Virus record (IMG/VR): IMGVR_UViG_3300021138_000002
Span: 1 to 64,000 of that record
Length of the DNA stretch: 64,000 nucleotides
Strand: one strand, 5' to 3'
Source: a virus
Position 1 is the stretch's first letter; each line of letters opens with the position of its first letter. The notes under the pieces were generated by a model, which worked only from the letters and a program-made list of their open reading frames with translations, did not search any database and was not told the DNA's origin. The translations under genes were made by a program, and so were the position numbers. This document shows positions 12,596-46,509 of this stretch, in pieces.

Positions 12596-12693
12596 TTGTA
12601 TATAAAAGGGTCTCTTTTACGCAGTTCTTTGAGTTTTTTACGATAGCGTATTTCCAATCTAATACGATCAATTATGTGTTTAATCCATTTCAT
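12592..12693 (-). CDS. Hidden 33-residue basic protein
   Basis: This frame joins two larger genes with ATGA overlaps on both sides: its ATG (12693-12691) overlaps the stop of the 360-residue gene, and its TGA (12594-12592) overlaps the ATG at 12595. The product begins MKWIKHIIDRIRLEIRYRKK and ends DPFIYK. It is a strongly basic, amphipathic helix, too short for common gene callers. The exact fit argues that it is translated. It could be a small accessory or membrane-associated peptide, or a peptide substrate of the radical SAM enzymes; the sequence does not decide. Confidence 0.75.
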   Translation of the reverse strand: MKWIKHIIDRIRLEIRYRKKLKELRKRDPFIYK

Positions 12694-21707: not shown

Positions 21708-23091
21708 GCCACCAGGCACTCATTTCAGGAAATGTTTTTAAAAAATCAGTGTTGCGCCTGCGGTCGTGTTCGTTGAAAAATCTATAAAAGTCGGCTTTGT
21801 TTTGGTTCAGGTATTGAATATCCAACTGTTGTCCAGCACGCATCCAGGCAATGTCTCGATCCAGTCTTGCCAGTTCATAATCTTTGAATCCTTGGAATCT
21901 GGTTTTGGGAGTTTCCAACTGTTTCATCATCCAGACCCAGATCTGTTCCAATTGATCACAATAGCTTTCGGGTAAAAGTTGTAGACTTTGCCAAGCGGGC
22001 TGTCTGAGTATTGGAGTATCAAACCACACACGCTGATAGGTAGTACTATAAAGTTTCCTAAGTCCCAATATGCCAGCCATGAGACTGCCAAATCCGGTCA
22101 CCGAAAGATTGTTCATGGTCACGATAAATGTGACACTATTGCGTCCGGGTATCTCGGTCAGGAATTGATTGACTCGATCCCATAGCAAGTTGAAATCCAA
22201 GCCGTGTCTGACATATTCGGCCTGTGTGCCCCACGAGTCCAGACTCACATACTGCATAAAGTGTTCGATCTGTTCACCTTCGCACAACTGTTTTACATAG
22301 CTCTTGTACTTTTGCCACGAGCGTTCGTCTACACTGAAGTTTGACGTCACGTTCAAATGCAAGTTGGGCTTGGGGTTGGCCAACACATAATCAAACACTC
22401 GATAGGTGTTTTTGTCCAACAAAGGTTCACCACCGGTCATCCTGAAGTGTTTGAGTTCCGGATACAGAGTGGGCCACCATGACCAAAATGCTTCTACGTA
22501 GGGATTGTGTTCGCGGGCAGGAATAGGCCTATTACGACCGGTAAAATGACCAGGATCATTATGAGTACGGCTAGTAGGATATCCACCATGACTGTCCACT
22601 TCCTGTTGCCAGGTACTGCTAAACTGTGGACTACAATAACTGCAAGCAAGATTACAAACATGATTAAAATTAACTTCAACATAGCTAGGAACAACATCTT
22701 CGTCTCCAGTGGAATTTGCGATAACGTGATAGTCTTTGCTGGCCCAAGGTTCGCCCGACCTGTAATGACGATCACTCAGCTTGCCAGCGTCCTCCATGGT
22801 CCAACAGTAAGAGCATTCACCAGGACGCTCTTGTGTAAGCATAATCTTACGTTGAGTTTTTTTGTATGGTGTGTTATGCAGTGCAGATGGATTGTCAGCC
22901 AATAGTTCTGCTGGTATAGCATGCAAGGGCGGGTGATAACAACTGTTGTTAAGACCAGTAGGTAGGTGTAAACTGACCTGTTTCCATTTGGCTAGACAAA
23001 GTGCAGGCCCTAGCGCCTCTTTCATGTGTTCGGCACTGCTTAAAAATCGTGATTTGAAGTCGGTCGAAACTTCGTCGCCTTTGTTTACCAA
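21676..23091 (-). CDS. Radical SAM enzyme with N-terminal Fe-S region, type B
   Basis: The start appears to be TTG 23091, nine bases after AGGAG; the next ATG is at residue 23, close to the first cysteine. Of 471 residues, the auxiliary cysteines are C32 (CLAKW), C51 (SCYHPPLHAI) and C93-x-x-C96 (CSYCWTMED), with LHNTPYKK between. The radical SAM motif is CNLACSYC (C146, C150, C153), and GGEP is at 220-223. GHFTGRN and NPYVEAFWSWW match GHFTHAH and NPYVEAFFRWW of the product at 18456, so the two are close paralogues. Confidence 0.9.
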   Translation of the reverse strand: MVNKGDEVSTDFKSRFLSSAEHMKEALGPALCLAKWKQVSLHLPTGLNNSCYHPPLHAIPAELLADNPSALHNTPYKKTQRKIMLTQERPGECSYCWTMEDAGKLSDRHYRSGEPWASKDYHVIANSTGDEDVVPSYVEVNFNHVCNLACSYCSPQFSSTWQQEVDSHGGYPTSRTHNDPGHFTGRNRPIPAREHNPYVEAFWSWWPTLYPELKHFRMTGGEPLLDKNTYRVFDYVLANPKPNLHLNVTSNFSVDERSWQKYKSYVKQLCEGEQIEHFMQYVSLDSWGTQAEYVRHGLDFNLLWDRVNQFLTEIPGRNSVTFIVTMNNLSVTGFGSLMAGILGLRKLYSTTYQRVWFDTPILRQPAWQSLQLLPESYCDQLEQIWVWMMKQLETPKTRFQGFKDYELARLDRDIAWMRAGQQLDIQYLNQNKADFYRFFNEHDRRRNTDFLKTFPEMSAWWHECEYHARQS

Positions 23092-27327: not shown

Positions 27328-28734
27328 TTATTTAATTGTCACAATGGCTTCCACTGTGCCGACTCCGGTGCCCGATTTATCCACTAGTGCTCGACCAATC
27401 GTGTTAAATGCTGTGGCTTCGCCAGGTTTAGCCGATCTTGCAATTCCGTTTCCGGCACTGACCAGGCGATCGCCTTTTGTCACGATACCCGTACATTGTA
27501 CAGGAACTCGACCAGTCATTGCAACCGGTGGATGAGTCGCATCATCTCCGGCACCACTGTTCATCAAATATGCTGCTCGTGTACTTATAACTCCAAACAC
27601 AGTTTCGCTCAATTCCGCTATGGCTTTTGTGATTTCTTGTGATCCGCCCAGTTCAACCACGGTACCGGCTTCATAAACAGCATCAGCAGCAAATCGCTCA
27701 GCCACGTCGGCATATTGAGCACTGGTAGCTGTTGCAAATATTGTACCAAAATAACGGCTTGAGTTTCCTATGTTGCCAACACCGTTGGCGTTGTTGTTGA
27801 TAATGCCCGACACATTGGCTATGCCGCCAAAATAAGGCAAATAATTGGCCACGTTGGCGTTGCCGTAACCGCCAGGAATACCATTGGCAAAGGCTATGTT
27901 ACCCAATATGTAACCACCTGAAACATTGCCGGTGGTGCTGATATTGCCGCTTGTGGCAATGATCATGCTGTTGCCACTGCCCATAAAGGTCGCTACATTG
28001 GCATCGGTATAGCTGGCCGGAAGACCGCTCAGTTGACTACCATTGCCCAAAATATACTTGCCGCTGACGTTGCCAGTTACGCTGACTCCTACATTGCCAG
28101 ATCCCCAAAAACTGGGCACACTGGTACCGCCTACGCCCAGCACAGAATTGGCCAACTGTAGTCCGGGATTGACGTTGCCAAATCCGGTAATGGTGTTAGC
28201 AGGTATAAATGTTGTGTCTTCGCTGATGATACCAACCACGGTGCTGTTTACTACCAATTCAATGACTTTGTGTGAAACGTTACCTGTGTCGGTTATCACG
28301 TTGGCAAATGCACCAGTCACACCAGTGCCAGTATTAAATTGCGGACCAACCAACAACCAAGTGTTGCCAGTCCAGATATTAACCTGTTGATTGGTAGTAT
28401 CAAACCACATGTCGCCAGTTGTACTGTAGGTTGAAGTGCTGGGTGTGGTGTTAGAAACAGCCATTGATGCCAGCGTTTTCCAGCTGGTGCCCATGTAAAC
28501 GGATAATACACCTGCGTTAGGAGTGTTGTTCCACCAAAGTTGGCCGGTCAACGGAGCAGAAGGAGCAGTGTTGTTAGATGCATTTTCCAACAAACGTATA
28601 AAATTGGTGTCTAAAAATTGTCCGTAACCGGCATAGTTTTTGCCTACCAAGGTCATGGAACTTGAAGTGTTGATAGTACCATCTTGTATGGTACCAAAGA
28701 CTGATCCGTCAGTTAAGGTTATTGTGTATGACAT
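27328..28734 (-). CDS. Tail fibre-like protein with glycine-rich repeats (468 aa)
   Basis: The N-terminus MSYTITLTDGSVFGTIQDG and the PLTGQLWWNN/TWLLVGP motifs are typical of fibre proteins in aquatic T4-like phages. The middle has repeats of the form GNVSGKYILGNGSQLSGLP and GNVSGGYILGNIAFANGIP (about 225-310). The C-terminal domain (SAQYADVAERFAADAVYEAG, VVELGGSQEI) is a conserved distal module. It would lie on the outside of the tail or baseplate and may bind the host surface. CATAAATA upstream and AGGG near the ATG suggest late expression. Confidence 0.75.
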   Translation of the reverse strand: MSYTITLTDGSVFGTIQDGTINTSSSMTLVGKNYAGYGQFLDTNFIRLLENASNNTAPSAPLTGQLWWNNTPNAGVLSVYMGTSWKTLASMAVSNTTPSTSTYSTTGDMWFDTTNQQVNIWTGNTWLLVGPQFNTGTGVTGAFANVITDTGNVSHKVIELVVNSTVVGIISEDTTFIPANTITGFGNVNPGLQLANSVLGVGGTSVPSFWGSGNVGVSVTGNVSGKYILGNGSQLSGLPASYTDANVATFMGSGNSMIIATSGNISTTGNVSGGYILGNIAFANGIPGGYGNANVANYLPYFGGIANVSGIINNNANGVGNIGNSSRYFGTIFATATSAQYADVAERFAADAVYEAGTVVELGGSQEITKAIAELSETVFGVISTRAAYLMNSGAGDDATHPPVAMTGRVPVQCTGIVTKGDRLVSAGNGIARSAKPGEATAFNTIGRALVDKSGTGVGTVEAIVTIK

Positions 28735-29553: not shown

Positions 29554-32500
29554 TCAGTAATCTACCCAGGTTCCTCTACGTACCAGTATGGTCACGTCCA
29601 CTCCTGCAGCAGGTGCAGTAGCAAAGGTTACCTGTACCGGACTTTCGGCAGTTATTGTGTACAGCGTGCTATTGACTCGCTGACCGGCCACATACACTTC
29701 GACTGCCACATTGAGCGGTTGCCAGTAGTTGGAGTTGGAAATTGCTGTGTTGGCTGGCACATCTTGTTTTGCACGGTAAAAATTACCGCTGGACTTGACT
29801 ATATCACCCAAAGAGTATGTGTTGCCGATGGCCCATGTTGTGGTCGAAGTACTCAAAGTGATACTAGGAGCATTAAACACTGTGGCAGTTCCGTTGGCCA
29901 AAGTTGTGTCTTGCACAACATAGTTTTGATACTGTCGTCCATACAAGTTGCTACTGCTCATGTTGTAAACTGTTGCACCGGTGTTGTGGGTTGTAACCGC
30001 AGTACCAGCAGTGCCACGAATCAGATCACTCACAGTATTGTTCACCAAATCAATGGTTCTGTACATGATACGTTCGGCGCCGATGGTCAATACACCCCAT
30101 TGATTGGCATCAAAATCTGGCACAAACAGTGCACCTGCATTGGCCACATGTATGATGTCGGCATTCGCAGTTACAGCCTGTGTGAGTGTGGTTGTGGTGT
30201 TGTCAGTGATTGTGTAGGTCAATTGTAGTCCACGCATGTCCTGGAATATGCGGAAATCGGCTCCGCCAGTTGGACCGCCAGTGGTATAAACACGGAAGTC
30301 CAAGGTATCAAATTCAATACCAGGAACCAGTTCTTCGGGGGCATAACTGCTGTAAGCATCCACGTATCCGCCACCAGCCACATTGATATCGGTGGTTCTG
30401 AGACCCAGGTAAGGATCTATATATGAACTTGAATACACTGTGTCCAGCATGCTGACATCTTGACCGGCTGTGTAATTGAGTCCGGCCACCTGTACTCCAG
30501 GATAGCTGACTCCTTCGATCAAGAGCGGTAAACTGAGACCCGGCATGTTTGGAGTAGGAGTATAGTAGCCCATGGTGCGGTCCACTCCGCTAAGAGTACC
30601 AGCATCAACCAAGCTCCATTGATTTGGATCAAACACAGCGGATGATACTGCGGCATTGGCTGACCAAACACGATTTTGCCAACGCACCTGATCACCTTCG
30701 GCATAATTGTGGCCTGCTTGCCATTCATATATGGTGGTCTCATATTGGTAACGATCAAACTTGATTCGTATCGCGAACTCTCGCACCATGTGATTGTTCA
30801 TAACAGTAGCTGCTTGAGCACCGGTGCCGTTACCACCAGTCAAGGTAACTGAAGCTGTGGTCAAGTATCCTGATCCTGGATTGGTTATAGTAACTGCGGT
30901 CACTTGACCGGTTCCGTTGATTGTGGCATACCCGCTGGCACCGTTGCCAACCCAGGTCAAGGTCGCAGTTCCGTTGGTCTGTGAGCCCGATGTAAATATT
31001 GGCGGTGTGTCGCCTGAAGTTCCGGCCGCTGTGACCGAATACAAGTTGTTGGTCGGGCCCGATATGTAATAGATCTGTTGTCCCAACACATACACAGTGT
31101 TGGCTGTCCAGGCGGTACCAATGGTCACAACCGGAGCTGTGGTGTAACCGGTTCCGCCCGACACAACATTGACTCCGTCAATGCTCAAGGTATAGTTGTT
31201 GAACCAGTTGGTCCAAGGCTGTTCAGACCAAACAGCAGAATTGGGTGCCGCATCACTGACAAAAGATTCTGGATAGCTGTTACTATCAGCGTACGGAGTC
31301 AAGACCGGACTGGTAAACTGTGGTATTTCTAGTGTGTTGTTCCAGTAGGCCGGCACGTCAAAGTCGGTCATGCCACCCGGATAAGTGTCGGAACCGTTGT
31401 AGATCAAATTGAATGCCAGGGTCTGTACATGGTAAGGTTTTACTTCGGTCAAGTAATCTTGCACAAAAGTTTGATCGTCGACTTCGTACAACTGATACGG
31501 CAACAATGGTTCCAGCTGATGATCTACCACGATAAAACTGCTTTTTATCAACCAGTTAGGCGAGGCAAATTCGCTGTAGACATACTGGAACATCAGCATC
31601 AACAGTTCGTTGCGATAGATCAACAGTTCGTCCGTGAACAATTCAAAATTGATCGCATTGATGATCTGTCGTGTTTCGGTTATTGGTGCCTGATCAAAAA
31701 ATTGTGCATCAAACACGTTGGCGTCGTAACCATAAGGTCCCAGTTGATAGTTCCATAACACTTCGCTGAAGGCGATAGTGCCGTTTTGTAAAGCCACTCG
31801 TGTCCACCCAAGATCGGTCCTTAGATAAATTTCGTATTGTCCATGACCGTTGCTGTTGACTTGTACACTGCTGCCCACAGGTGCCACAGTGATACTGAGT
31901 GTCTGCAAATCAGAATAGTTAGCCACTTGTGCCACTGGCTGTATCGAACTGTTGTATCCAGGTTGATACCAGTTGATGTAGTTCCAGTACAAGGGTGTGT
32001 CGTAGCTTTGGATCTGTGCCAACTGCAACGTACCAGATCCGGTGTTGCTGGTCACTTCATACACAGTCCATCGGCCGTTGTAATCGCTATCGGACAGCAC
32101 AAGATACAAATATCCCACCGGTACCGCTGTCAGGTCTTGATAGCCCAACACAGTTAGATTGGGCACAGACATATTGTATCCGGCTGTGGCTGTGATTGTG
32201 CTTGATGTGATATTGAGGCTGGTAGAAATCGTATAGGTACCTGCTCCGCCTGTGCCAGTTCCACGTGCCACAATAGTAACAAATGCTGGAATTCCAGTGC
32301 CGGTCAAGGTTTGCCCAGGTTCAAATACTCCGGTCACGGTTCCGGCCACGGTTAGAGTTTTTCCAGATATTGAAGCTGCTGTAGCCGTTCCTGTAGTTGA
32401 ATCCGGGACTGGTTGACTGCTGTTCAACAGATTGAAACTACGCATTTCTGTGATGGGATATTGAGCAAGAATGGTATTAGCTCGATCGAGATAATTTTCC

Positions 32501-35500
32501 AAGGCTCGATAGCGATTGACAAACATGCCCTGTCTTGGGCTGTATTGCACTCCGTAACGCATGCCCGGACTCAACAGCGGATCAGGAACCAGGGCACCTG
32601 ACAGATTTTCTCCACAAAAACTGTCGACCATTTTTTGATAGATTGAATCGGTTATGAAACTGTCGGCTTTGCCGTCGGCCACGAATTGATATTCGGTGTG
32701 TATGTTTGCTGCGGCTCCTTGTGCCTGGCGTTCGTATTCCACATGTAAAATGGTATCACTGGCGCTGATCAATCCCACACTGTTGTACAACGCCACTGTG
32801 CTGGAATTGATAGGTGCTATGTAAGGCAGTCCACTGTTTAACGGATTGGCAATGTAACTGGCTATAGCCGATGCACTGAGTGTCTTGCCGTTAGCACTGT
32901 CAACTGTGGTAATACCACGCACCCAATAGTAGTACTGGGTTGAGAATGTTCCAGTTGAAGTCAACGAAGATTGAGTGGTATAGCTGGTGGTGCTTAACGG
33001 TGTTCCTGTTCCGCTGTAGCTGGCCGGTGGCACATCGCTTTGTATCCATTGATATATGTCCACGCGACTGCCCGGAAACAATCGACCCCATTGGCGACTG
33101 GCATACACTATGTCGCTTTGATTGGGGTTGATAAATCTCACAGTGTCGGTATCCCACCAGATTTCGCCAACATGCTTGTCAGCCCAGGCGGTACCATTGT
33201 TGTGTATGGTTCCAGTGTTGTAGTTGGCCGGGTCAACTGCTGATGTGTAATTGATGTTTTGAGCAGCCACTCCTAGTATCTTGCCCTGTAAAGGATCGAT
33301 AAAATCATAATAGGTCTGTGTGCTACTCAACAATTTGTCAAAACTGTAAACTGAATTCAGTAGATCAATGTTGACCACTGGCTGTTGCTGATATATGGTG
33401 GCCCAGGCCGGTAAATTGTTAGGATTATCGTAAACAGCAACTGATCCATAATTGGCATTGTTGGTAGTTGCAAGATCCACGCCCGGGGCACCCACAACCA
33501 AACGACCGTTCACATAGCTGGCTGAGGTACCAAACTGATCGCCTGTGGCTGTGCCGCTTTGATAAATCTGTTGTCCAAACACCATTTTTCCAGGATTGTT
33601 CACTGAGCTATTGGCACTGGGGAAATAGTCGAAAGTATAAGCAACACCACTGTTGCTGACCGGATTGCTGAACAAGGTGCTGTTTTCGTCAAATATGGTT
33701 TGTCCACCATCAAAACTCATGGCTTCGTACACATTGCCGTTGGGAGCTCCTATCACCACGTTGAGACTGTTGCTGTTGATGCTGATGGAGCTGCCGAAAT
33801 AACCGTAAGATACTGGATTTGGACTGTACAATGTTTGCGTATAAACAAATGTGTCAAAACCCAAGGTGTCAAAAGCAGAACCGGCACCGCCCAATCCAGG
33901 CAACACTGAAAGCTGATTGTAGGTCGGAGCTGATGCAGAATTTATCACAGACAGAACCAATTTTCCAGTGACCACCACAATGTTTGAGTAAGTGTTGGGA
34001 GCAGTCACAAATGCAATTTGCTGACTGTTGGCCAGATAGGTGTAGGTATAGCCCGCGGCCGGACTGGCTTTCTGTAACACGCCATCTATATAGACCACAG
34101 GATTTGAGCCTGCTGTGCTGTAGACTGATCCTACATCAAACAGTTTGGTAACACCATCACCGATAAAATTCAAATTGTTGCTCAACGATGCTTGAACATT
34201 TGGTATCACATACGAACTGGTCCATTGCACGCTGCTGTTAGAAGGAGCCACATTCAAACTGGTTGTGGCAGCAGTATAGCAAACAGAATTGTAAATCACT
34301 CGATCGTTTAGATAGTACTGTGTGGTGCTTGACCATGGCAATGGAGATATGGCATTTACCAGACCGGTCACAGTGTTGTTGGGACTGTTAGGCACAACCA
34401 CTTCAATGCCGTTCACGCGAATGGAAGTTCCTGCTGTCAGCACCGGATTGGCCACAGTGCTCACGGTCACTCCATACAGTCTACTCTGATTGACTGCACG
34501 TTCTACACTGCCGTCCTGCACCATGGGCAAGTTGCTGTTTTTTGGTGATCCGATATACAAACTGCAATCGTTGTAGCAGAGTCGAGAACTGTAACCAAAC
34601 AACGAACCTGACTCGGGCGATTGTGCTGTTATTTTTTGTACCAACTGGAATTGATTGGTTTCTATTTCTATTGTATCGCCAACAGCAAGTATCACCGACG
34701 GTGCTAACACGATGTTGTTGCTGACAACTGTGAATTGTCCGTTGGGGTACTGTGCGGTGTTGGTCAAGTACACGCCGTTGTGTAGAACAGCGATTGGATC
34801 AGCGAAAGATCCTATGATTGCATACGTGGTTTGTGCGGTATTGTTGACCAGGTATTTTATCACGCTACGATCAAAAATATAGGTTGATCCAGCATTGGCC
34901 ACAACATTACCGGCCGAGTCAAGTGCAGAATCTGCAACAGTTCCAACAATCACAGTGCGTCCATCGGTGCTGGTGGCAACACTTGATCCAAAACCAGCAC
35001 CTGCACCCAGCGACAAACCGGCTGTGGGCAAGGTTGAAATATATTTCCAATAGGTTCTGGTTGTAATCTGCACTGATGCACCCGATGCGGGTTCATGTCC
35101 ACTGACAAATTCTATCTGTGTGGTATAATTGTAATCGATATAAGGTCGTTGTAGAACGCCATTTACCAACACATTGAACGAATCAATGTTGGTGGCTGTG
35201 TACAGGTATGGTACAAGATTGTAGTTGGCTGACCCAGTGCCGGTCAATGCCAACGCCGAACGACGGCTGATTGTTAATTTTTTTCCAGTGACCGGTGCAG
35301 TCGCAAATAAAATTTGTGAACTGTTCAGGGTATAATCGGTTGGATATACCAAAGTTTGATTGTCCAAGGTCACGATCAACTGCTCAGGATATGTGAAGTT
35401 GACCAATATGGCCGAAGACCAATTGAATGCAGCAGTAACTCCATCAGTGGTGTACGAAATCGACTGTTCCGGAGTATCAACCAGACCGTATGCGTAGACC

Positions 35501-38500
35501 AAGTTTCCGCCAGGAGCACCAATGTACATCCATTGTTCGTTGTAGCTCATTGCCACCGACGATCCAAATGCCACAGCGTTGGCAGTAGTTGGAGCTGTGA
35601 ACAACTGTGTTTGTATATACTGATTGCTTGCAGGAACTTGGTATATGGCACTGGCATATCCTCGACCACCATCGCTAGCACTAGCACCGGCTATGCTCCA
35701 GTTGCTGTTGCCCCAGTCGAGACTGTTTCCGTAACCGGCCACGTTGGCCGCTGACAGTGTGAGTATGGTGTTGTCCACATAGGTTCCCTGTCCGGTGCCA
35801 GCATTTACTCGTGTATAGGTGTAAATTGCACCAGTATCTTGATTGGGACTGCCTACCAGTAGGCTGACACTGTTGGTGGATTGTGCTATACTGGTGCCAA
35901 ACAAACTGTTTGTTTCAGGAACAAATGCTGTCAAACTTTCCACAGTGGCAAACGGTGATTGTTTTTCCAACACTTCCCAGTGGCCCGATCCATTGTTGTC
36001 GACCCAGGCACGAGCTCCAGGAACCAGGTCCGTTGCGTAAGATAATGTGGCCACATCGCTGGCCTGAGCCACACGCATGGTCTGTAGGTGCCAGGCTAAA
36101 CCAGTGCCAGTGATGGTGGTTTGATTGGTTGAAGTAAACGAATAAGAAATTATCACTTGAGTGGGCGACGGCACACCCAACACACGATACACTCCATCAA
36201 CGCCGGTGGCAAAATAACGCACGATGATCAAATCGCCGATGGCCAAGCCGGTCACTGCGGTAAATTGTGCAATACTTGTGCCATTCAAGTTGTCAGTCAG
36301 CTGTCGTAGTCGACCGGGAACCTGGGCACACCGATATATGTTCCAGTCATAACTGTTGTCGTGAGCCACCCATATGGTAGTTCCGGTACCGATGGTATTG
36401 AGTTTGGCCGCGATAGCCGATGGATCGTCTAACGAATATACTGTGATGTCAGCATCATTGACATTGACATAACCGGCCGAAGGCAGTGCAGTGTTTAGCG
36501 TGGTAGGATAAATGGTTGGCAATATATCAGTGCTAGTAATATTGTAACTTTCCTTCCACAGATTGCTCAACAACACAGTTTGATTGGCCTGGCTGACATC
36601 ACCAGGTTGTATTATTTGTACTGTGCTGGGATTGTTGGTCAGCAGTGCTTCGTTGAGATTGATTTCAAAATAGCTACGATTGGCTGTGGCCCCGTAGGTT
36701 CCGATTAGCACTCCCCAGGTTTCGTAAATTTTGTAAGTTCCACTGCCCTTGGTCAAAGCCACGTTGGTGAAAAGATCAGTGGCTCTTACCGTGCCTTTGG
36801 TCTTGATAAACTGTTGATAGAGATTGACCTGGGTCACATCGTCAAGATTGAGATTGACCATGTACTGTCTGGGAGTAAATCCTATCAGATTGTAGGCCAA
36901 CAAATCGTTGTTGTTGTTTAGATTGGCAGTTTGTGTGTTGTAGGTGTTGGCCAACTGATCGGCCTTGTTGGCCAAGTTGGGCAAGAGACCACGTTCAATA
37001 CGAGTCCAATTACTCTGGAACCAGTTGTTGTAATCAAAAACCGATGTGGGTTGCACCAGGCCCGACGCTTGCCAGTATTGATTCTTGTATCGTACTATGT
37101 CGCCCTTGGTATATCTTTGTGTGGGACTCCATGGCTGTACATTGTCTTGATTGAGTATAAATCCTTGTGCGTTGAGCGTGCCATCCCATTCGGTGGTGTT
37201 AAACGCATTGAGATACAGTCTGTTTTGTCTTTCTGCCGTGGTAGGATCATAGATCAGGTCGTTGAAAATATCCACGTTGTCAAACACTATCATGTTTTCG
37301 TAGTCGGTAAACTGTAAATTTAAAAAACTGATGGCCTGATTGGTGCTGGGTGCCGGATTTATCGTAAAACTGTCACCGTATCTCTGTATGACCAAGTCTC
37401 TGGTGGCAAATGTGCGACGATTTTGGTCCAGCAACTGATTTTGCGGACTGTAACTGACTATGCTGTCAACCACGGCCCCGGCATTGTTCACACTGAGTTG
37501 ACTGGCTGCCGGATTGAGATTGATCAATGTTCCTGTTTGCCAGCCTTGTTGACTAAAGTACAAAAACTCCTGGGCCATTTGACCCCAATTGAGCACATAG
37601 CCATTTTCCATGTAGGTAAAGGTCATGCCTTGTGATTCTAGATACTTTCCGTAACTGAGTAAAAAGTCCACAACCATGGTCTGATTGGTAAACACATAAC
37701 CGTACGGAATATAAGTGATCTTGTTGGTGTACTGTGCAGGCACAGTCACCGTGGCTCCGCCGCTGCTGACAGTCTGTGTCAGGCCGTTGACTGAGCTGAT
37801 AAAAATTGGAAAGTATGGTTGATAACTGCCGTACCCGTACACGGCCCATCCGTTGTTGACTATTTCAATCACGACCGAGCTGTAGGCAATTTGTCCATAT
37901 GGCTGATCTTTGTACAGCAACAAATTGTAACTTTCGGGTGGAATCAACAGACTCTTGTTTTGGCTTTCAGGGCTGCTTTTTTCAAGATAGATTTCAAGAC
38001 TTTGTTGATCGGTCCATGACGCCATCCTATAACACAATCTTACATCTAGATTAGACAAATCGGTGGTCAACGAATCTGTGCTGTTGAGTCCAATCTGTTG
38101 ATTATAGTCCACTATCCAGTTGATATAGCTGGCTTTGCTGACGCCGTTGCCGTAGATTTCCAGTTCGCTGGCATTCAATCTATAGCGTCCGTTGTAAAGA
38201 TACTGACCAAGATCCGCATTGTATTTGTAAAGATCTCGATCGGCAAACAGGCTGAAAAATTCTGCCGGTCTGGTCAAGGCCAACAGTCGCATGACCGCGA
38301 ACGGATAGCTAGAGCTCATCCACCACGAGGCTTCAACCGGTCCACCATCGCCCACAGTCCAGCTCTTGCGGAAATCGTTGGGGTTGTACAGTCCTACCAC
38401 ACTTTCCAGAGGTGGTAACAGTTGTCCCAGGCTGTCTACAGGAATGGCCGAGGTCAGTCCGGGTCTGGCAAAAGCCGGGTCGATATAGGGTGCCACTGGA

Positions 38501-41500
38501 TCGGCTATATAGCCGCGTTCTAGATCTCCCCATAGCACTAGGTTACCATTGGTATAAGGAGGCAATCCGTAACGGTCGGCCCACCATACCGGCTGTTCGC
38601 TAAAACCCAGCATTTCCCACGGAGTAAGATTGGGTGTTATGGTGTCATAAAAATAGCGATAAATTCCGCGCCAGGCTCCTTGGCTCAACACTGCGCCGTT
38701 GATTCTGTTGCCAGCTGTACTGTAATTGTAAGTGAAAGCATTGTTAGGCAAGTAATCTTGAGCAGTATAATCCAACTTGTTGTAGCCGGTCCAGATCAAA
38801 AAGTCTTCGCCTAGTATTTGTGTTATTTCACTTTCGGTATAATCTGTTGTGCGGAAAAATCCCGGAGCCACTTCGTAAACGGAAAGCGGTACAGGGTTGT
38901 CATCATTTTTGAGATTGTTGTAGATTCTGGTTTCAAATTCCAACAGGATCTGGTCTCGTATGTCGCCAAATGCCACTGTGGTACTGCCGTCGTGGCCCTG
39001 TATGACCAAGGTTGGGTTCACATAATCGGTATCAAGATAGATTTTAGGAATCCATTTGGGATACAGCCCCAGCTTGGTAGGAGTATTGGGAACAAAGTTT
39101 CCGTAGGTAGGATTGTATTCGTTTATGGTGACCACATCTCCTACAGCTAATGTAATCAAGACGGTCAAGGTCGGAGTACCCGATCCTACCACATATTCCA
39201 CATTGCGAGTCAGCAAGCGATCGTTGACATAGACCAACAGCCCTAGATAGTTACTGGTAGTAAAGTCATAAGTTTGTACAGTGTTAAATCGTGCTGTGGT
39301 TATCGGATTCACTGTGGTTGAATTGCTGGCAATGACCGTGCCTGTGGGCAACATATCGCTCCAGTAAAACGGGCTGATGCTGGTATCTCCTGCGTTGATA
39401 ATAGAGACGGCACTGTCTAATATTTCAGGCACAGTCTGTGTGCCAAAATCGTTGCTTATCACAGTGTTCAACAGCAAGGATTTGAACTTGATATATTCTC
39501 TACTGTTGAATTCAAGGGCATTGAAAATATTGTATTGATCACTGCGTAAAAAATAACCAGCCAGGGTCAACGGACTACTTTGTTGCAGGATCTGTAGACC
39601 GTAAGGAACGATGTTGCCCAGATCTCTGCTGTTGTTGGCGCCAATGATTGGACCTTGAAGATTGATTAGATTTTGTCCAATGGTACTGTAGTGATTTCTT
39701 GCGGTGCCTAGGGTAAGTGTTGGGCTGTTTTTGTTGAGCGGATTGTTTTCTAAATTGATAGGAACCTGATAAAATCCAGTGGCACTGATCTGATCGCTCA
39801 ACACTTGTATTTCTACCACGTCACCGGTGGTGGCCACGGAAGAATTCAAAATGATGGTCGTGGTATTGCTGGTGACAGAATAGGTATAGTTATAGGTTTC
39901 TGTAGTTGAATCATACGGCTCAACAAAATTGGCATTTACGAACAGTTGTACCGACGGCACAGTGGTGTTGGGATTGACTGCAACGTCTAGCAATAACGGA
40001 GCACCCGAATAGGTATATCTAAACTGTTGACGGATTTGACTCTTGGTGACAGCAGTTTGCCATCCAATTTCTTTGCTGAACACCAAACGAGATGCATACT
40101 GTCTTACAAATCCAGTGCTCAACGCCAAGGTAATACCTTGATTGTTTATGGTATAATTGAAACTGTCCACGTAGAGATTGTTGTCAAACACGATATCGCC
40201 AAGATTGCTGAGATTGAGATAGGTCAGAGGAAATCCCAGGTAAGCATCGGCTGATCCGTTGCCTACCGCATAGCTGAACAACTTGCTACCGGTAAAGTTG
40301 GAACTTGGATATGTAACTGGGTCTGCAAAACTGATGCCGTTGCTGTCATACACATCAAATTCAGGTGGCTGATTGACTGTGGTTTTTTGCTGTGATTGGA
40401 TCCAGTAGGATCCATCAAAATAGTACGTGATTCCGATCAGGGTATTGCCATTGAGACAAAAAGTAGACTGGTCAGACAAGACCGTAGCAATAGGTAAAAG
40501 ATTGATTATGGGTTCGGTGATTAAGGGCGGCACAGTATCGGGCGTGATAAATTCCACCTGATACACAGTGCCACGAACCGCAATGTCCAGGTCGCCGGCA
40601 AAAATCACAGTGCTGCCGTTGACCAAGGTGTAACCGTCGGTGGTAAAACCAATTGACCCATTCACTGTGGCCAATGCATTAGTTTGAGAAAAATCAATGA
40701 TGTTGACTGGGGCTATGCCTTCGGTTCCAAAGTCAAACAGTCGGGTGCCAGGCCTGAATTCCAAGATAGGTCGTTTGGCTCTAGCCAGTTGATCTAGTAC
40801 CGGTATGTTGTTATTATATTTGGCTGTGACGTCAATCACATCCACATGGAACCATCTGTTGCTGCGAGTCCACGGATTGTGGTCCGGACTGGCTCGGTTG
40901 ATGGTAAGATAGTCAGGTACAACCGGAGATCCCGAAATATAAGTTTCAGGTGTCACAAATTCTGTAACTGGCAACAGTTTAATGGCTGTGCCTACACCTT
41001 CCACGTAGTATTCATTGCCTGAGTAGCTGGCCGGTATTGTGGTTCCTGTAAATAACACCTTTAGGCCATTGGTAAAAGTCACGCCGTTAGGACTGGTATA
41101 ATTGGTCTTGCCTAGTATGTTGTTGATGTTCAAAACTGCGTTTTGGGCAACATCCACCAGATGTATAGTTCCAAACATGGTTGGATCGGTGCCGTCTTGA
41201 TAGTACAAGGTGTCTCTTGAAGCAGTCAACAACGGCATTTCGACAAACACACCAGATGAATTTTTAAACCATTTGGTGCTGGCATACTGTGTACCAAACA
41301 ACACACTGAACTGTGTGAGATTGTCCACCGACAATATGTTGACCAACTGGATGCGACCACCGACTATGGTAATCAGCCAGACCACATATAGATTGGGATC
41401 CAGGTCTGTGGTGCTACTAAATGCGAGAGTGCGGTTTTCAATGTTTGTGATGCCATCAATACCGTCGGGGTTGGCGGCAAAAAAATCTGTGACCAAGACT

Positions 41501-42660
41501 CCGTTGATTTGATCAAACGGCAAGGTCGTTACCAGATCCACAGTGCCAGCCGGTTGATTGGGTATTGATCCAATGATTGGCAATGTGTAATAGAAATTTT
41601 GTGCAGTGCTGGCCGGTGTGTTGAAAGTCACGGTACCCAAGTCTGCACCGTTGTTGACCACACCCATGACTCCGCGACTGCTGATGTTGGGCGTTGACGG
41701 AATTGTGCCATTCACTCCGGGGTCAGTCTGTATCCAAAATCCCGGACCAGTACCGGGTGTGCCATCCACGATGTTGAACTGACCACGCATGTTGAATTCG
41801 GTTGAACTGCAATAGTACAAGGTATCGGGTGCGTCTTGCGGTACTACAAAAGTGATCAGGCCAGTGGCGGCACCGTTGTTGGTCACTCCTGAATTGTAAA
41901 GATTCACGGTGCCATAACTCAACTGTGTTTTGATATAGAACGGCAGGGGTGCTGTCAACGAAAGATTGAAAGTGTAAGTGTTGCCACGCACCAAGGTCAA
42001 AGTAGGATTGCTGGCGTAGTCGATGATCCAAGACGTGGTGCCATTGTTGGTCACACGATACTGAATGGTTGCTTGATCGTTTTGTGCCACAGCAAAGTTG
42101 TAGGTGCCTTGTCGTGCCAGAGTCAGAGTTGGATTGGTTCCGGGTACTCCACTAAAGGTATAAAAGCCGTTGCTGCGAGTCACTGTAAAATTTTCAAAAG
42201 TGGGTATACCGGTCGCATTTACTGTGACTGCATCCGGTCCGTTGGGCAACCAATAGTATTGAGAATAATTTATAAATTTGTCAAAGTCAACGAACGGATC
42301 CCAGGTATAGTATTCGCTGGTGTACAAAGCAGACGGATCGGCAGTCACTGCACCTTGCAAGGCAAGTGCATCGTTCATGCCCGGATAGGTTATGGCATCA
42401 ACCACCTTGTGAGTGTTGGTTGGATCCAGTTGTACCACGCCAGGCTCCAGCTGATAGTTGTTGCGTACAGCCGTGGGTTCAATCACGTACTGATCGTTGG
42501 CATTTACTCCGGGTCCGATACGTCGGCCCACGTACCCTTGTCGCTTGGCAAAGGCCGGTTCCTGTACCAATTGGTCCAGGGTAGCTGCCAAAAATTGCTT
42601 GTTGGTTTGGGTTTGAAATATCTCAGGAAGAAAGTCTACTGTGCGTACTGTTGTGGCCAT
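29554..42660 (-). CDS. Giant tail/baseplate protein (4368 aa) with FG-GAP propeller and CBM5/12-like modules
   Basis: It starts MATTVRTVDFLPEIFQTQTN, which I associate with giant post-gene-6 structural proteins of aquatic T4-like phages. It lies where T4 has genes 7-12. FG-GAP-like blades occur near residues 2252, 2364, 2555, 2685, 2953 and 3041 (FGTS/FGSS, then VGxP or IGxP), suggesting an integrin-like beta-propeller. Segments of the form W-x4-Y-x2-GD-x-V-x-Y near 1842, 2774, 3849, 3977 and 4275 resemble CBM5/12 chitin-binding modules. A repeated unit (NG-x-L, then DY and FATAP-x-G) recurs at least six times. The stop follows GTWVDY. The gene overlaps gene 6 by one base (TAATG). Likely a baseplate wedge or fibre-network protein; function inferred. 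Confidence 0.8.
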   Translation of the reverse strand: MATTVRTVDFLPEIFQTQTNKQFLAATLDQLVQEPAFAKRQGYVGRRIGPGVNANDQYVIEPTAVRNNYQLEPGVVQLDPTNTHKVVDAITYPGMNDALALQGAVTADPSALYTSEYYTWDPFVDFDKFINYSQYYWLPNGPDAVTVNATGIPTFENFTVTRSNGFYTFSGVPGTNPTLTLARQGTYNFAVAQNDQATIQYRVTNNGTTSWIIDYASNPTLTLVRGNTYTFNLSLTAPLPFYIKTQLSYGTVNLYNSGVTNNGAATGLITFVVPQDAPDTLYYCSSTEFNMRGQFNIVDGTPGTGPGFWIQTDPGVNGTIPSTPNISSRGVMGVVNNGADLGTVTFNTPASTAQNFYYTLPIIGSIPNQPAGTVDLVTTLPFDQINGVLVTDFFAANPDGIDGITNIENRTLAFSSTTDLDPNLYVVWLITIVGGRIQLVNILSVDNLTQFSVLFGTQYASTKWFKNSSGVFVEMPLLTASRDTLYYQDGTDPTMFGTIHLVDVAQNAVLNINNILGKTNYTSPNGVTFTNGLKVLFTGTTIPASYSGNEYYVEGVGTAIKLLPVTEFVTPETYISGSPVVPDYLTINRASPDHNPWTRSNRWFHVDVIDVTAKYNNNIPVLDQLARAKRPILEFRPGTRLFDFGTEGIAPVNIIDFSQTNALATVNGSIGFTTDGYTLVNGSTVIFAGDLDIAVRGTVYQVEFITPDTVPPLITEPIINLLPIATVLSDQSTFCLNGNTLIGITYYFDGSYWIQSQQKTTVNQPPEFDVYDSNGISFADPVTYPSSNFTGSKLFSYAVGNGSADAYLGFPLTYLNLSNLGDIVFDNNLYVDSFNYTINNQGITLALSTGFVRQYASRLVFSKEIGWQTAVTKSQIRQQFRYTYSGAPLLLDVAVNPNTTVPSVQLFVNANFVEPYDSTTETYNYTYSVTSNTTTIILNSSVATTGDVVEIQVLSDQISATGFYQVPINLENNPLNKNSPTLTLGTARNHYSTIGQNLINLQGPIIGANNSRDLGNIVPYGLQILQQSSPLTLAGYFLRSDQYNIFNALEFNSREYIKFKSLLLNTVISNDFGTQTVPEILDSAVSIINAGDTSISPFYWSDMLPTGTVIASNSTTVNPITTARFNTVQTYDFTTSNYLGLLVYVNDRLLTRNVEYVVGSGTPTLTVLITLAVGDVVTINEYNPTYGNFVPNTPTKLGLYPKWIPKIYLDTDYVNPTLVIQGHDGSTTVAFGDIRDQILLEFETRIYNNLKNDDNPVPLSVYEVAPGFFRTTDYTESEITQILGEDFLIWTGYNKLDYTAQDYLPNNAFTYNYSTAGNRINGAVLSQGAWRGIYRYFYDTITPNLTPWEMLGFSEQPVWWADRYGLPPYTNGNLVLWGDLERGYIADPVAPYIDPAFARPGLTSAIPVDSLGQLLPPLESVVGLYNPNDFRKSWTVGDGGPVEASWWMSSSYPFAVMRLLALTRPAEFFSLFADRDLYKYNADLGQYLYNGRYRLNASELEIYGNGVSKASYINWIVDYNQQIGLNSTDSLTTDLSNLDVRLCYRMASWTDQQSLEIYLEKSSPESQNKSLLIPPESYNLLLYKDQPYGQIAYSSVVIEIVNNGWAVYGYGSYQPYFPIFISSVNGLTQTVSSGGATVTVPAQYTNKITYIPYGYVFTNQTMVVDFLLSYGKYLESQGMTFTYMENGYVLNWGQMAQEFLYFSQQGWQTGTLINLNPAASQLSVNNAGAVVDSIVSYSPQNQLLDQNRRTFATRDLVIQRYGDSFTINPAPSTNQAISFLNLQFTDYENMIVFDNVDIFNDLIYDPTTAERQNRLYLNAFNTTEWDGTLNAQGFILNQDNVQPWSPTQRYTKGDIVRYKNQYWQASGLVQPTSVFDYNNWFQSNWTRIERGLLPNLANKADQLANTYNTQTANLNNNNDLLAYNLIGFTPRQYMVNLNLDDVTQVNLYQQFIKTKGTVRATDLFTNVALTKGSGTYKIYETWGVLIGTYGATANRSYFEINLNEALLTNNPSTVQIIQPGDVSQANQTVLLSNLWKESYNITSTDILPTIYPTTLNTALPSAGYVNVNDADITVYSLDDPSAIAAKLNTIGTGTTIWVAHDNSYDWNIYRCAQVPGRLRQLTDNLNGTSIAQFTAVTGLAIGDLIIVRYFATGVDGVYRVLGVPSPTQVIISYSFTSTNQTTITGTGLAWHLQTMRVAQASDVATLSYATDLVPGARAWVDNNGSGHWEVLEKQSPFATVESLTAFVPETNSLFGTSIAQSTNSVSLLVGSPNQDTGAIYTYTRVNAGTGQGTYVDNTILTLSAANVAGYGNSLDWGNSNWSIAGASASDGGRGYASAIYQVPASNQYIQTQLFTAPTTANAVAFGSSVAMSYNEQWMYIGAPGGNLVYAYGLVDTPEQSISYTTDGVTAAFNWSSAILVNFTYPEQLIVTLDNQTLVYPTDYTLNSSQILFATAPVTGKKLTISRRSALALTGTGSANYNLVPYLYTATNIDSFNVLVNGVLQRPYIDYNYTTQIEFVSGHEPASGASVQITTRTYWKYISTLPTAGLSLGAGAGFGSSVATSTDGRTVIVGTVADSALDSAGNVVANAGSTYIFDRSVIKYLVNNTAQTTYAIIGSFADPIAVLHNGVYLTNTAQYPNGQFTVVSNNIVLAPSVILAVGDTIEIETNQFQLVQKITAQSPESGSLFGYSSRLCYNDCSLYIGSPKNSNLPMVQDGSVERAVNQSRLYGVTVSTVANPVLTAGTSIRVNGIEVVVPNSPNNTVTGLVNAISPLPWSSTTQYYLNDRVIYNSVCYTAATTSLNVAPSNSSVQWTSSYVIPNVQASLSNNLNFIGDGVTKLFDVGSVYSTAGSNPVVYIDGVLQKASPAAGYTYTYLANSQQIAFVTAPNTYSNIVVVTGKLVLSVINSASAPTYNQLSVLPGLGGAGSAFDTLGFDTFVYTQTLYSPNPVSYGYFGSSISINSNSLNVVIGAPNGNVYEAMSFDGGQTIFDENSTLFSNPVSNSGVAYTFDYFPSANSSVNNPGKMVFGQQIYQSGTATGDQFGTSASYVNGRLVVGAPGVDLATTNNANYGSVAVYDNPNNLPAWATIYQQQPVVNIDLLNSVYSFDKLLSSTQTYYDFIDPLQGKILGVAAQNINYTSAVDPANYNTGTIHNNGTAWADKHVGEIWWDTDTVRFINPNQSDIVYASRQWGRLFPGSRVDIYQWIQSDVPPASYSGTGTPLSTTSYTTQSSLTSTGTFSTQYYYWVRGITTVDSANGKTLSASAIASYIANPLNSGLPYIAPINSSTVALYNSVGLISASDTILHVEYERQAQGAAANIHTEYQFVADGKADSFITDSIYQKMVDSFCGENLSGALVPDPLLSPGMRYGVQYSPRQGMFVNRYRALENYLDRANTILAQYPITEMRSFNLLNSSQPVPDSTTGTATAASISGKTLTVAGTVTGVFEPGQTLTGTGIPAFVTIVARGTGTGGAGTYTISTSLNITSSTITATAGYNMSVPNLTVLGYQDLTAVPVGYLYLVLSDSDYNGRWTVYEVTSNTGSGTLQLAQIQSYDTPLYWNYINWYQPGYNSSIQPVAQVANYSDLQTLSITVAPVGSSVQVNSNGHGQYEIYLRTDLGWTRVALQNGTIAFSEVLWNYQLGPYGYDANVFDAQFFDQAPITETRQIINAINFELFTDELLIYRNELLMLMFQYVYSEFASPNWLIKSSFIVVDHQLEPLLPYQLYEVDDQTFVQDYLTEVKPYHVQTLAFNLIYNGSDTYPGGMTDFDVPAYWNNTLEIPQFTSPVLTPYADSNSYPESFVSDAAPNSAVWSEQPWTNWFNNYTLSIDGVNVVSGGTGYTTAPVVTIGTAWTANTVYVLGQQIYYISGPTNNLYSVTAAGTSGDTPPIFTSGSQTNGTATLTWVGNGASGYATINGTGQVTAVTITNPGSGYLTTASVTLTGGNGTGAQAATVMNNHMVREFAIRIKFDRYQYETTIYEWQAGHNYAEGDQVRWQNRVWSANAAVSSAVFDPNQWSLVDAGTLSGVDRTMGYYTPTPNMPGLSLPLLIEGVSYPGVQVAGLNYTAGQDVSMLDTVYSSSYIDPYLGLRTTDINVAGGGYVDAYSSYAPEELVPGIEFDTLDFRVYTTGGPTGGADFRIFQDMRGLQLTYTITDNTTTTLTQAVTANADIIHVANAGALFVPDFDANQWGVLTIGAERIMYRTIDLVNNTVSDLIRGTAGTAVTTHNTGATVYNMSSSNLYGRQYQNYVVQDTTLANGTATVFNAPSITLSTSTTTWAIGNTYSLGDIVKSSGNFYRAKQDVPANTAISNSNYWQPLNVAVEVYVAGQRVNSTLYTITAESPVQVTFATAPAAGVDVTILVRRGTWVDY

Positions 42661-45600
42661 TAAATTACCCCACTACCGGGTGCAGTTTGTAAATTTGTAC
42701 TGGTAAGTGCTGTGATAACTTCAACGTCGTTGACTGTGGCACCATTGACAAATATTTGATTGGGGGCTGATCTTATTTCATAAAGGTCACCAAAACTTTT
42801 CTGTGGATTCAGTGGAACCAGAACCACACTGCTTACTATGTCACCAATCTGTTGATGTATGTAGGCCGCCAATTCACTAAAATAAAAGGTATCGCCAAAG
42901 TTCCAATTGGCCAGGTCAAAGTACGTAGCCATGGTAGCCACGACAGAATTTTTGATTTCAGTCACGCTGGCTGTGCTCTGACTGTTTTGTATGACCTTGA
43001 TGGTGGCTCGCAAGGCCGGATCGGCTTTTTGTCCAAACAAGGGCTGGAAGTCCACGGAATTTATAATCAAATTGTCTGATATCATTTTGTAAGTGTCTAA
43101 GCCAGCGTAGGCTGTGCTTAATTCGTTTATGGTAGGTGGGCTGGGTTCGGTCACAGTGCCGGTCACATCTTGTAGCCAATTTTGATAGGCTGTGTAGTAT
43201 TCGTTGGTGACCACATAAGAATCAATGATGTTTGTGCTGCCCGGATCGATACGACTGGTTAGGGGACTGTTGTGTCTGTATTGGAAATAGAGATCTTGTC
43301 GACCAATTTTGGCCAGATAAGATGAGTTCACAGTGAGCACTCGATTACCAGTGCTGTCTAGAGTTATGGTATAAAACACCTGATTGGTTATAGCCTGGCT
43401 GGGGTATTGATTGTAAGCGTAGAATGTCTGTCCCACAGTGTACTGACTCAATACCAACTGTATTGAAGCTTGTGTGGGGTAATCTGAATTGACCACACCC
43501 TGATTGACCAGCAAATATCTCTGCAGATTGTCAAAGTCGGTGGTCTGTTGGAAGAACACCAGTTTGTGATTGCTGTTGACTGTGGGGGCCACTAGATCAT
43601 TGAAGAAATCTGGATTGATAGGCACGCTGCTTCCGGGCACACTTTCAAAACTGACTTCAACTTGGAAATCATCTACTAGGCCGTCGGTCAATACTGGCTG
43701 GGCGATAATGGTCATGACACTGTCTTCAGGCAAGGGGTAATTTGAATCAGGCTGACTGTTGATCTTGAGCACGTTTATGTAATCCCGTATCACAGTTCCG
43801 GTACGGCTGTCATAGATTGGATCACTGGTATAAAAGAAAAATCTTGTTTCGGCCACGCTGCCAAAAAAGTATTCGAGCGATCTAGATATCACGGTATAGT
43901 TGTTGCCGTTGGTGGTACACTGGATCAGCCAGCTGGCATCGCTGTTGGTTCCGGCTGTGCTTTGTGCGTTGGTCAGACTGAATTGGGCATTAGTATCCAA
44001 ATTGCTGGATGTGATCAGATACCAGGTTCCGGTAAGATTGTTGTAGCCCAGGCCAAAGTTTTGATTGAGATAGATTTGATTGACCACACTCTGTTTTAAA
44101 CTTGTGGGAATGTCGGTGACAAAAAGCGGAATCACTTGGTTGGGGATGGCACCGGTGGGAACATAAGTGTTCAACACCACTGGACCAACTCCTGTAGGCA
44201 AATTGCCCAGTCCTTGAGCGGTACCCGACAGATAAACTGCGGTCGGGCTGGCCCAGATAGACATTTTTTCACTGGGTTGGCTGGCTGTACCAGGTTGCAA
44301 ATTGTTTTCGGCATCAAAATAATAACCGGCAGGAGGAACAAATTCTACCAAGCTACCGACCACGATATATTTGGCATTGTTGCTGGCATAAGGACCAACC
44401 GGTACCGGTGTGCCTGAACTGTTTTGGAAATAACCTGTGGTTTCGTTGTTGAGCACAGTGCTCTGATGCCAAGTGTAGTTTAGGCTGTACAAGTCGGGTC
44501 TAGGAAAATTGGCATAGTAAAACTGTTGCATGCCGGCTGTGCTCAATAAAGGATTGACTTGATTGTACACAATGTCGCTGATGTCGTTGACTGTGAGCCA
44601 CGAAAACAAAAATGCCGGTGTTAAATTGCTTTCGTACAAGGCACCGTCGCTGGCAAAAATATTGGTGCTGGAATATTTGCCTGTGCCATCGACCAGGTCA
44701 AGATATCTGCTGGTTCCTATGCTGGCTCTATTGACCGCTGTGCTTTTTAATATGCTGTTGTATTGGGTGAACGGAAAAGTGGTATAGTCTTCGCCGTTGA
44801 CCATTCTGTTCTGTGTGTAATACTGTGCCGGTGCACGCTGTTTGATTTCTTGTATGGTTTCGCGTGCTTGTGCATTGGTCACTGGTTCAGTGATGCCACA
44901 AACAAAAGTCAAGGTTTCAATCTGTCCAGTGCGGCTCACATAACTGATCGGAATCTGTATGTTTTGCATTTCCTGTGGATTGATAATGTAGGTCAATCCG
45001 TTGCTGGCTCTCACATAGGTTCTAAACGTGCCCACTGGAATGGTACTGAATATACCATCGCCAAAGTTCAGGGTTATCTGATCATTGGTTCTGCTGGCGA
45101 TACTGTAGATGTTTTGAGTGCCCGGTGTCAACTGTTGTGTGGCAGCAGCATAAACACTGGGTACTGGAACCCAAAAATACTGTATGTTGCCCACATTGTC
45201 CAACTGATACAACCATACATCGGTATTATTGACACCGTCGATGTTGATGTTGACTGCACGATTGCTTATTCTTTCGGCCAAGTTGAAATCTTGATTTTGC
45301 AGTGTGCCCTGTTTGAAGTAGAAAAAATATCCGGTATTGGCACTGGCAAAACCCAGTTTGTCGTTTCTAAACAAGATGTTGAATTGTCCGTTGGGCAATG
45401 GAGGTGGTTCATACACATATTCTTGCCCGGCTGATGTGGCGTTTACAGCTTCAAACGGCATGCTGACGCCATCAACTGTGGCTGTGTAAGGAATCACCGG
45501 CAAATATCCTGGAACTAGATTGATAGTATATTCTTGTGTAGTAATGCCTAGAATGTCTTGTGTGGCTCCCGGACGTCCAAAACGCTGTGTGTTTACTAAC

Positions 45601-46088
45601 GAAGCATTTATGATGGTGGTAAACTGTTCTTGCCAATCAAGATTGGTAGGATCTGCCCAGTTCACTGTGATATTTTGTAAATTGATACCGTTGTAGTCGG
45701 TGAGATTTTCTGTGGTGCTGACACTGAACACTTTGAGATAGCCCGATGCTTCGGTGTTGCGTAACGGTGTGTAGCTGACCAAGTTGGCCAATTTGATAAC
45801 ACTGTCTCTACGTTCAGCAGTGTCTAGATAATTTTCTCTGTTGTTTAGGTCGGTACGAAATGCTAGAGCCTGGCCCATAAATGCCATCACGTCCAGCAAG
45901 GCAATAAATTCGCTGCTTTCAATGTAGTCGTTGAAAGTTTCTGGATAGTATATTCGCAAATAGTCTACAAAACTTTTGCGTAGTGTTTCAAAATCATAGC
46001 TTTGAAAGTTGGCTTCTTGGTAGGTCTGATAGATCTGCTTCCAATCTTCAACGCCAAATATTGCAGTTTGTCTTGTGGTTGTGGCCAT
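42660..46088 (-). CDS. gp6: Baseplate wedge protein gp6
   Basis: A 1142-residue protein of the T4 gp6/baseplate J family. The N-terminus (QTYQEANFQSYDFETLRKSF, then DYIESSEFIALLDVMAFMGQ and REN-x-LDTAERRDSVIKLANL) is the conserved gp6 start. In T4, gp6 forms the inner ring of the baseplate that triggers sheath contraction. T4 gp6 has 660 residues, so this one is much longer; the extra length lies in the beta-rich middle and C-terminal parts. It lies just after gene 25, as in T4-like phages. GATAAATA lies 19 bases upstream and GGA near the ATG. Confidence 0.92.
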   Translation of the reverse strand: MATTTRQTAIFGVEDWKQIYQTYQEANFQSYDFETLRKSFVDYLRIYYPETFNDYIESSEFIALLDVMAFMGQALAFRTDLNNRENYLDTAERRDSVIKLANLVSYTPLRNTEASGYLKVFSVSTTENLTDYNGINLQNITVNWADPTNLDWQEQFTTIINASLVNTQRFGRPGATQDILGITTQEYTINLVPGYLPVIPYTATVDGVSMPFEAVNATSAGQEYVYEPPPLPNGQFNILFRNDKLGFASANTGYFFYFKQGTLQNQDFNLAERISNRAVNINIDGVNNTDVWLYQLDNVGNIQYFWVPVPSVYAAATQQLTPGTQNIYSIASRTNDQITLNFGDGIFSTIPVGTFRTYVRASNGLTYIINPQEMQNIQIPISYVSRTGQIETLTFVCGITEPVTNAQARETIQEIKQRAPAQYYTQNRMVNGEDYTTFPFTQYNSILKSTAVNRASIGTSRYLDLVDGTGKYSSTNIFASDGALYESNLTPAFLFSWLTVNDISDIVYNQVNPLLSTAGMQQFYYANFPRPDLYSLNYTWHQSTVLNNETTGYFQNSSGTPVPVGPYASNNAKYIVVGSLVEFVPPAGYYFDAENNLQPGTASQPSEKMSIWASPTAVYLSGTAQGLGNLPTGVGPVVLNTYVPTGAIPNQVIPLFVTDIPTSLKQSVVNQIYLNQNFGLGYNNLTGTWYLITSSNLDTNAQFSLTNAQSTAGTNSDASWLIQCTTNGNNYTVISRSLEYFFGSVAETRFFFYTSDPIYDSRTGTVIRDYINVLKINSQPDSNYPLPEDSVMTIIAQPVLTDGLVDDFQVEVSFESVPGSSVPINPDFFNDLVAPTVNSNHKLVFFQQTTDFDNLQRYLLVNQGVVNSDYPTQASIQLVLSQYTVGQTFYAYNQYPSQAITNQVFYTITLDSTGNRVLTVNSSYLAKIGRQDLYFQYRHNSPLTSRIDPGSTNIIDSYVVTNEYYTAYQNWLQDVTGTVTEPSPPTINELSTAYAGLDTYKMISDNLIINSVDFQPLFGQKADPALRATIKVIQNSQSTASVTEIKNSVVATMATYFDLANWNFGDTFYFSELAAYIHQQIGDIVSSVVLVPLNPQKSFGDLYEIRSAPNQIFVNGATVNDVEVITALTSTNLQTAPGSGVI

Positions 46089-46134: not shown

Positions 46135-46509
46135 TTATACATAGCTGGCCACACGTTGAGATTGATTGAAAAAGATACTCAACTGTTGTGCCGTGGTAGT
46201 GCCTACCACTGTTATTTCTAGCTGTATTAAAAGTCCGTTCTGTTGCGGAAATACTTCAATTGAGCTGATGTAGATTCTAGGATCCCCGCCAGCTACCCGT
46301 TGCACTTCGTTGTACACAGCCTGTATGGTATCCTGTGTTTGGTTTTCAAATATGTTGTTCCACAAGGTAGTTCCGTACCAGGGCAGGCCCACCAGTTCAC
46401 CTTGTCTGATATTGAATGCATTGAGTAAATCACGTTTGATCAACTCAAAATCAGTCAAGGTAAAATATTTGTTTTGATTGATTGTGTTGAATCCAATAAA
46501 TGTTGTCAT
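46135..46509 (-). CDS. gp25: Baseplate wedge protein gp25
   Basis: A 124-residue protein of the gp25/GPW family, the usual length. It begins MTTFIGFNTINQNKYFTLTD, continues with LIKRDLLNAFNIRQGELVGLPWYGTTLW, and has the conserved GGDPRIYISSIEV (the EPR-motif region, here DPR). gp25 sits in the inner baseplate ring next to gp6 and starts sheath assembly. The gene order 25-6 supports the call. AGTAAATA is only four bases before the ATG. Confidence 0.92.
   Translation of the reverse strand: MTTFIGFNTINQNKYFTLTDFELIKRDLLNAFNIRQGELVGLPWYGTTLWNNIFENQTQDTIQAVYNEVQRVAGGDPRIYISSIEVFPQQNGLLIQLEITVVGTTTAQQLSIFFNQSQRVASYV

Follow-up and report, generated by a model that had tools for sequence, protein, structure and literature searches.

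The giant gene P0001 occupies positions 29554-42660 on the minus strand of the window, the 64,000-nucleotide stretch of DNA analyzed here, which is part of a 145,096-base virus record. The gene is a single, uninterrupted open reading frame of 4,368 codons, as the original prediction had stated, and close relatives have the same layout. Its first base coincides with the last base of a gp6-like baseplate wedge gene directly upstream on the same strand (42660-46088; phrog_10646 and phrog_219), for which hhalign gave 73.6% over 85 residues against T4 gp6. Further upstream are a gp25-like baseplate wedge gene (46135-46509, minus strand) and hub/lysozyme-like and gp53-like genes, the order being gp53-like, hub and gp5-like, gp25, gp6 and then P0001. 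This gene neighborhood recurs in phages 121Q, GAP32, RaK2 and Cassandra (PA5oct-like). In Atu_ph07, SCTP-2 and Vibrio phage 2.275, the giant gene follows a large gene that takes gp6's place without being annotated as gp6. The Vibrio phage gene in that place (L086:8941-12804) is annotated as carbohydrate-binding module (CBM) family 5/12, and by this annotation CBM5/12 modules may have entered neighboring wedge proteins too.

Elsewhere in the window, the tail genes have as neighbors a cluster of radical SAM genes, at least four in number and several of them containing SPASM domains (12690-23091, minus strand), which is followed by a carbamoyltransferase-like gene (10531-11997). The gene at 27328-28734 (minus strand) shows a weak match over residues 324-394 to Peptidase_G2, a self-cleaving chaperone domain of a type also present in the C termini of some fibers or spikes. 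The record is probably a fragment of a larger genome, as related contigs reach 346,856 bases; separate wedge genes may therefore lie outside it.

In four scaffold stretches, P0001 matches the virion structural protein profile phrog_10938, of length 3,324, at E = 3.8e-286. The family consists of giant virion proteins already known from jumbo myophages (RaK2, 121Q, CBB, PA5oct, Atu_ph07), and the jumbo-phage orthologues found by tblastn are ~22-32% identical to P0001. Relatives in IMG/VR are encoded by 133 stretches, 80 of which were kept; L005 (4,368 amino acids, 86% identical) and L002 (4,410 amino acids, 74% identical) share the full-length layout. Near query residue 4130, most metagenomic relatives carry 410-830 additional residues (for example, ~4022-4507 of L009), compared with 13 in the query. 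In L058 (4237-9023), two overlapping reading frames divide the protein at about query residue 803, owing to either an assembly error or a frameshift. Mass spectrometry of purified virions detected 21 peptides of the CBB orthologue, gp236 (PMC5259590). Seventeen unique peptides were reported from purified phAPEC6 virions for the 382 kDa gp245, which adjoins the baseplate wedge protein gp244 in the list (PMC7247149) and is called an orthologue here by size and order, without sequence comparison. Synteny and these virion data together support the wedge or tail role that had been proposed.

The protein had also been predicted to stand in for several T4 wedge genes. In T4, gp6 is followed by gp7, gp8, gp9 and gp10, and P0001 does hold the position after gp6. 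Profile comparison by hhalign in large and small windows detected no similarity to T4 gp7-gp11, with at most 2.8% for gp7 (reversed gp7 served as the control and gp6, at 73.6%, as the positive control) and 31% with T4 gp10 in one small window. The Pfam gp7 helical, domain V and domain VI families are present in T4 gp7 and absent from P0001 at E values up to 1, and a fold search with the scaffold model, itself weak, returned no gp7 match. An HMM search for gp6-gp11 over 144 kb of the record found no match, but is uninformative because it missed the window's own gp6 as well. Replacement of several T4 wedge genes is thus a positional statement. Against the PDB, phmmer with whole P0001 gave no match, and profiles of two scaffold parts gave chance-level matches only. 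Two further hits, Pfam DUF2460 (E = 0.71) and phrog_460 head closure (E = 0.00093, residues 3895-3977), were taken as chance or common glycine-rich β repeats.

The scaffold consists of conserved blocks, all on the minus strand: residues 1-140 (42241-42660), which align in all family members, residues 600-1835 (37156-40863), residues 1895-2160 (36181-36978) and, after the propeller described below, residues 3090-3400 (32461-33393) and 3560-3800 (31261-31983). The AlphaFold model of residues 1180-2180 is poor (pLDDT 64, pTM 0.37) and usable for its CBM segment alone. A cupredoxin-like domain at residues ~190-300 (41761-42093, minus strand), assigned by motif only, is common to P0001 and cyanophage fiber proteins. 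Its metal ligands are degenerate: the copper-ligand places are H, C, H and M in PSSM2_028 of P-SSM2 and L, C, E and M in P0001. The RaK2-like members of phrog_10938 (121Q gp582, CBB gp236, GAP32_230 and RaK2 ORF070) have the scaffold and the place after gp6 in common with P0001, but at ~3,320-3,340 amino acids they lack the propeller, CBM module 1 and the cupredoxin-like domain. The Cassandra/PA5oct orthologue (3,857 amino acids) likewise follows gp6, and that of Atu_ph07 (4,449 amino acids) the large gene in gp6's place. In these Wroclawvirus (PA5oct, Cassandra) and Atu_ph07 proteins, CBM_5_12 matches fall below the Pfam cut-off and at sites other than those of P0001, the blade profile finds no FG-GAP blades, and the insertions differ from those of P0001.

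As no similarity to the wedge proteins of T4 could be detected, and as fiber-type domains are present (the cupredoxin-like domain and the NG units described below), P0001 might be a large fiber, whisker or tail-surface decoration protein for which the place after gp6 is incidental; the RaK2-like phages CBB and phAPEC6 indeed have fibers along the sheath (PMC5259590, PMC7247149). We consider this unlikely, given that the place directly after gp6, with the gp25 and hub genes, is conserved in divergent phages, and that the large scaffold is under strong purifying selection and present across phages of different fiber types.

A seven-bladed FG-GAP propeller with inserted domains spans residues 2240-3085 (33406-35943, minus strand). 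Pfam FG-GAP_2 scores 56.2 bits on P0001 against a cut-off of 23, and the strict FG-GAP motif occurs in six copies, with 0.17 expected from shuffled sequences. The original prediction of a propeller holds, but its count of six blades, which the strict motif reproduces, rises to seven by a blade profile (starts at residues 2250, 2308, 2362, 2553, 2685, 2952 and 3039). Of the 40 full-length members that bear a propeller, the query among them, 36 have exactly seven blades and four have five or six, a count that is partly circular as the profile was trained on these same sequences. The profile finds no blades in L046-L048, nor in any of the seven isolate orthologues. Atu_ph07, a candidate propeller bearer by the length of its insert, was rejected on this basis. 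AlphaFold modeling of residues 2190-3110 with 30 sequences gave a pLDDT of 86.5 and a pTM of 0.86. The DSSP string, as we read it, groups the strands into seven sheets and places additional domains inside blades 4 and 5 as well as between blades 3 and 4. The recurring NG-x-L/F-ATAP β unit that had been predicted is likewise present, with the strict motif at residues 2430 and 2856 (none in shuffles); inspection by eye adds further copies, some between blades and others at the C terminus. Two such units lie in the insert between blades 3 and 4 (residues 2405-2543; 35032-35448, minus strand), assigned by motif and secondary structure, the second by eye, and one lies inside blade 5 (residues 2840-2910; 33931-34143, minus strand).

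The best Foldseek match of the propeller in the PDB is a tail chain of cyanophage A4 (9k09_U, E = 3.5e-11). Those after it are mostly integrin alpha chains, with E values from ~1e-8 upward and global TM-scores of ~0.2-0.5, which are low because the inserts depress them. The propeller profile matches integrin alpha-M in the PDB at E = 4e-4. Integrin-type propellers are defined by FG-GAP repeats with a Cage motif in every blade, and in half of the integrins an alpha-I domain is inserted between blades (PMC3192720). P0001 shares seven FG-GAP blades and inserted domains with the integrin alpha propeller, but differs in its phage setting, in the domains inserted and in the absence from residues 2240-3085 of the DxDxDG calcium loops expected in several blades; it is accordingly classed as an FG-GAP propeller and not as an integrin. 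Among predicted viral structures, the fold is found in giant-virus FG-GAP proteins, in the Atu_ph07 'hemagglutinin' (A0A2L0UZX4) and in a virion protein of S-TIM5 (H6WG31); unlike P0001, the latter two are separate proteins of ~400 amino acids outside any wedge scaffold. A tblastn search with the propeller alone found no match in 50,697 INPHARED phage records, and a literature search found no paper on a baseplate, FG-GAP and jumbo phages in combination.

Pfam CBM_5_12 scores 37.7 bits on the whole protein (cut-off 26.2), in three stretches. Five CBM-type modules had been predicted, four of which are recovered by the strict CBM5/12 motif at residues 1844, 2776, 3980 and 4276 (~0 expected in shuffles); the fifth, placed at 3849, fails this motif and is a degenerate copy at residues 3851-3905 (30946-31110). 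Module 1 comprises residues 1844-1890 (36991-37131), module 2 residues 2776-2820, inside blade 5 (34201-34335), module 3 residues 3980-4022 (30595-30723) and module 4 residues 4276-4320 (29701-29835), all five copies being on the minus strand. Profile comparison relates the segment at 1844 to chitin-binding domains. The predicted fold of this segment resembles 2d49 (TMt 0.67) and 2rts (0.51), as well as chains of the Milano baseplate and receptor-binding complex (rmsd 0.7-1.2) and of the Lilla1 baseplate, all with E values of 0.06-0.2 from a long, weak model. The original prediction would have been refuted by models lacking a propeller or CBM fold; this outcome did not arise for the propeller or for module 1, where the weak model gives a candidate CBM fold. 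CBM5/12-like folds occur in phage baseplate and receptor-complex proteins for which no sugar binding has been shown (Milano 8fqc), and a fold so widespread does not imply chitin itself as the ligand.

The propeller and CBM modules are cassettes inserted into a conserved scaffold, an arrangement that is new in this analysis. Residues 1842-1890, containing module 1, are absent with sharp ends, and with conserved scaffold on both sides, from seven isolate relatives (121Q, GAP32, RaK2, Atu_ph07, PA5oct-like, SCTP-2 and Vibrio 2.275). The stretch between anchors at residues 2160 and 3095 is 936 residues long in the query, compared with 111-113 in 121Q, RaK2, GAP32 and the metagenomic relative L046. 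In a scaffold tree whose deep branches are long and unsure, L046 groups within the clade that bears the propeller (fork support 100 and 99), which indicates that it lost the propeller. The accessory parts also change at different rates. Relative to L005, the scaffold has a dN of 0.066, compared with 0.166 for the propeller and 0.225 for the insert between blades 3 and 4, so that the propeller protein sequence changes ~2.5 times faster than the scaffold; the contrast was repeated with L002 and L006. Estimates of dN/dS against L005, rough because dS is close to saturation, are ~0.1 for the propeller and near 0.04 for the scaffold, and the propeller is still under purifying selection. CBM modules 2 and 3 change faster than the scaffold, and module 1 at about the scaffold rate, which fits a structural role for module 1.

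L046 and all of the cultured relatives compared do without the propeller, as would be expected if ordinary divergence had left the accessory domains as relics without a role in infection. This is very improbable in view of the dN/dS across the propeller and the retention of seven blades in nearly all of the full-length members that carry it. A propeller and modules that are optional and change faster would suit exposed parts in contact with the host or the fibers. We favor, at a probability of about 0.55, a reading of P0001 as a giant wedge protein whose outward-facing propeller and CBM cassettes touch host glycans or glycan-binding fibers. The wedge position, outward orientation and glycan binding are all inferred. 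The scaffold (residues ~1-140, 600-2160 and 3090-3800), conserved across jumbo myophages, would build or link the wedges. Plugged onto it are the accessory domains, namely the propeller with its β units and CBM5/12-type module, and the further CBM5/12-type modules. Most likely facing outward, these cassettes could engage host surface glycans, or the fibers that bind them, weakly and multivalently, and such contacts may help seat the baseplate on the cell ahead of contraction.

Carbohydrate binding by P0001 is plausible from the fold and from a precedent in Bacillus phage Vp4, whose wedge protein Gp119 has CBM folds and binds and decorates cells; Gp177 of Deep-Blue, a homologue without CBM folds, does not bind cells (PMC11406892). 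By analogy, Gp119 would resemble P0001 as a wedge protein with optional CBM folds, but it has 831 amino acids, CBM16-like folds and no propeller. It is conceivable, and at present speculative, that a wedge-built propeller with a sugar-binding module inserted in a blade acts as a surface sensor that helps trigger contraction, comparable with the integrin alpha-I domain by convergence.

Docking of other tail proteins is a serious rival. P0001 would again be a wedge component, but its propeller and CBM-like modules would hold fibers or fiber-network connectors, binding no sugar, and their variation would follow that of the fibers. Propellers are common protein-binding scaffolds, module 1 changes as slowly as the scaffold, and its fold matches in Milano and Lilla1, noted above, are to chains without demonstrated sugar binding. 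Such docking is possible but appears less likely than glycan contact, as the propeller diverges fastest and was lost whole in a relative, and as cell binding has been observed for Vp4 Gp119, a wedge protein that has CBM folds.

The usual view of wedge proteins is of conserved machinery that leaves host recognition to the fibers; in the family described here, a conserved scaffold at the wedge position holds surface-type domains that are optional. With this analysis, one of the largest jumbo-phage proteins still lacking an explanation has a domain map. It also identifies natural controls, L046 with its lost propeller and the cultured phages RaK2, 121Q and CBB with a barer scaffold, which make a direct contribution of the wedge to host binding testable. 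P0001 probably lets the tail base touch the bacterial surface directly, in an unusual version of a known idea.
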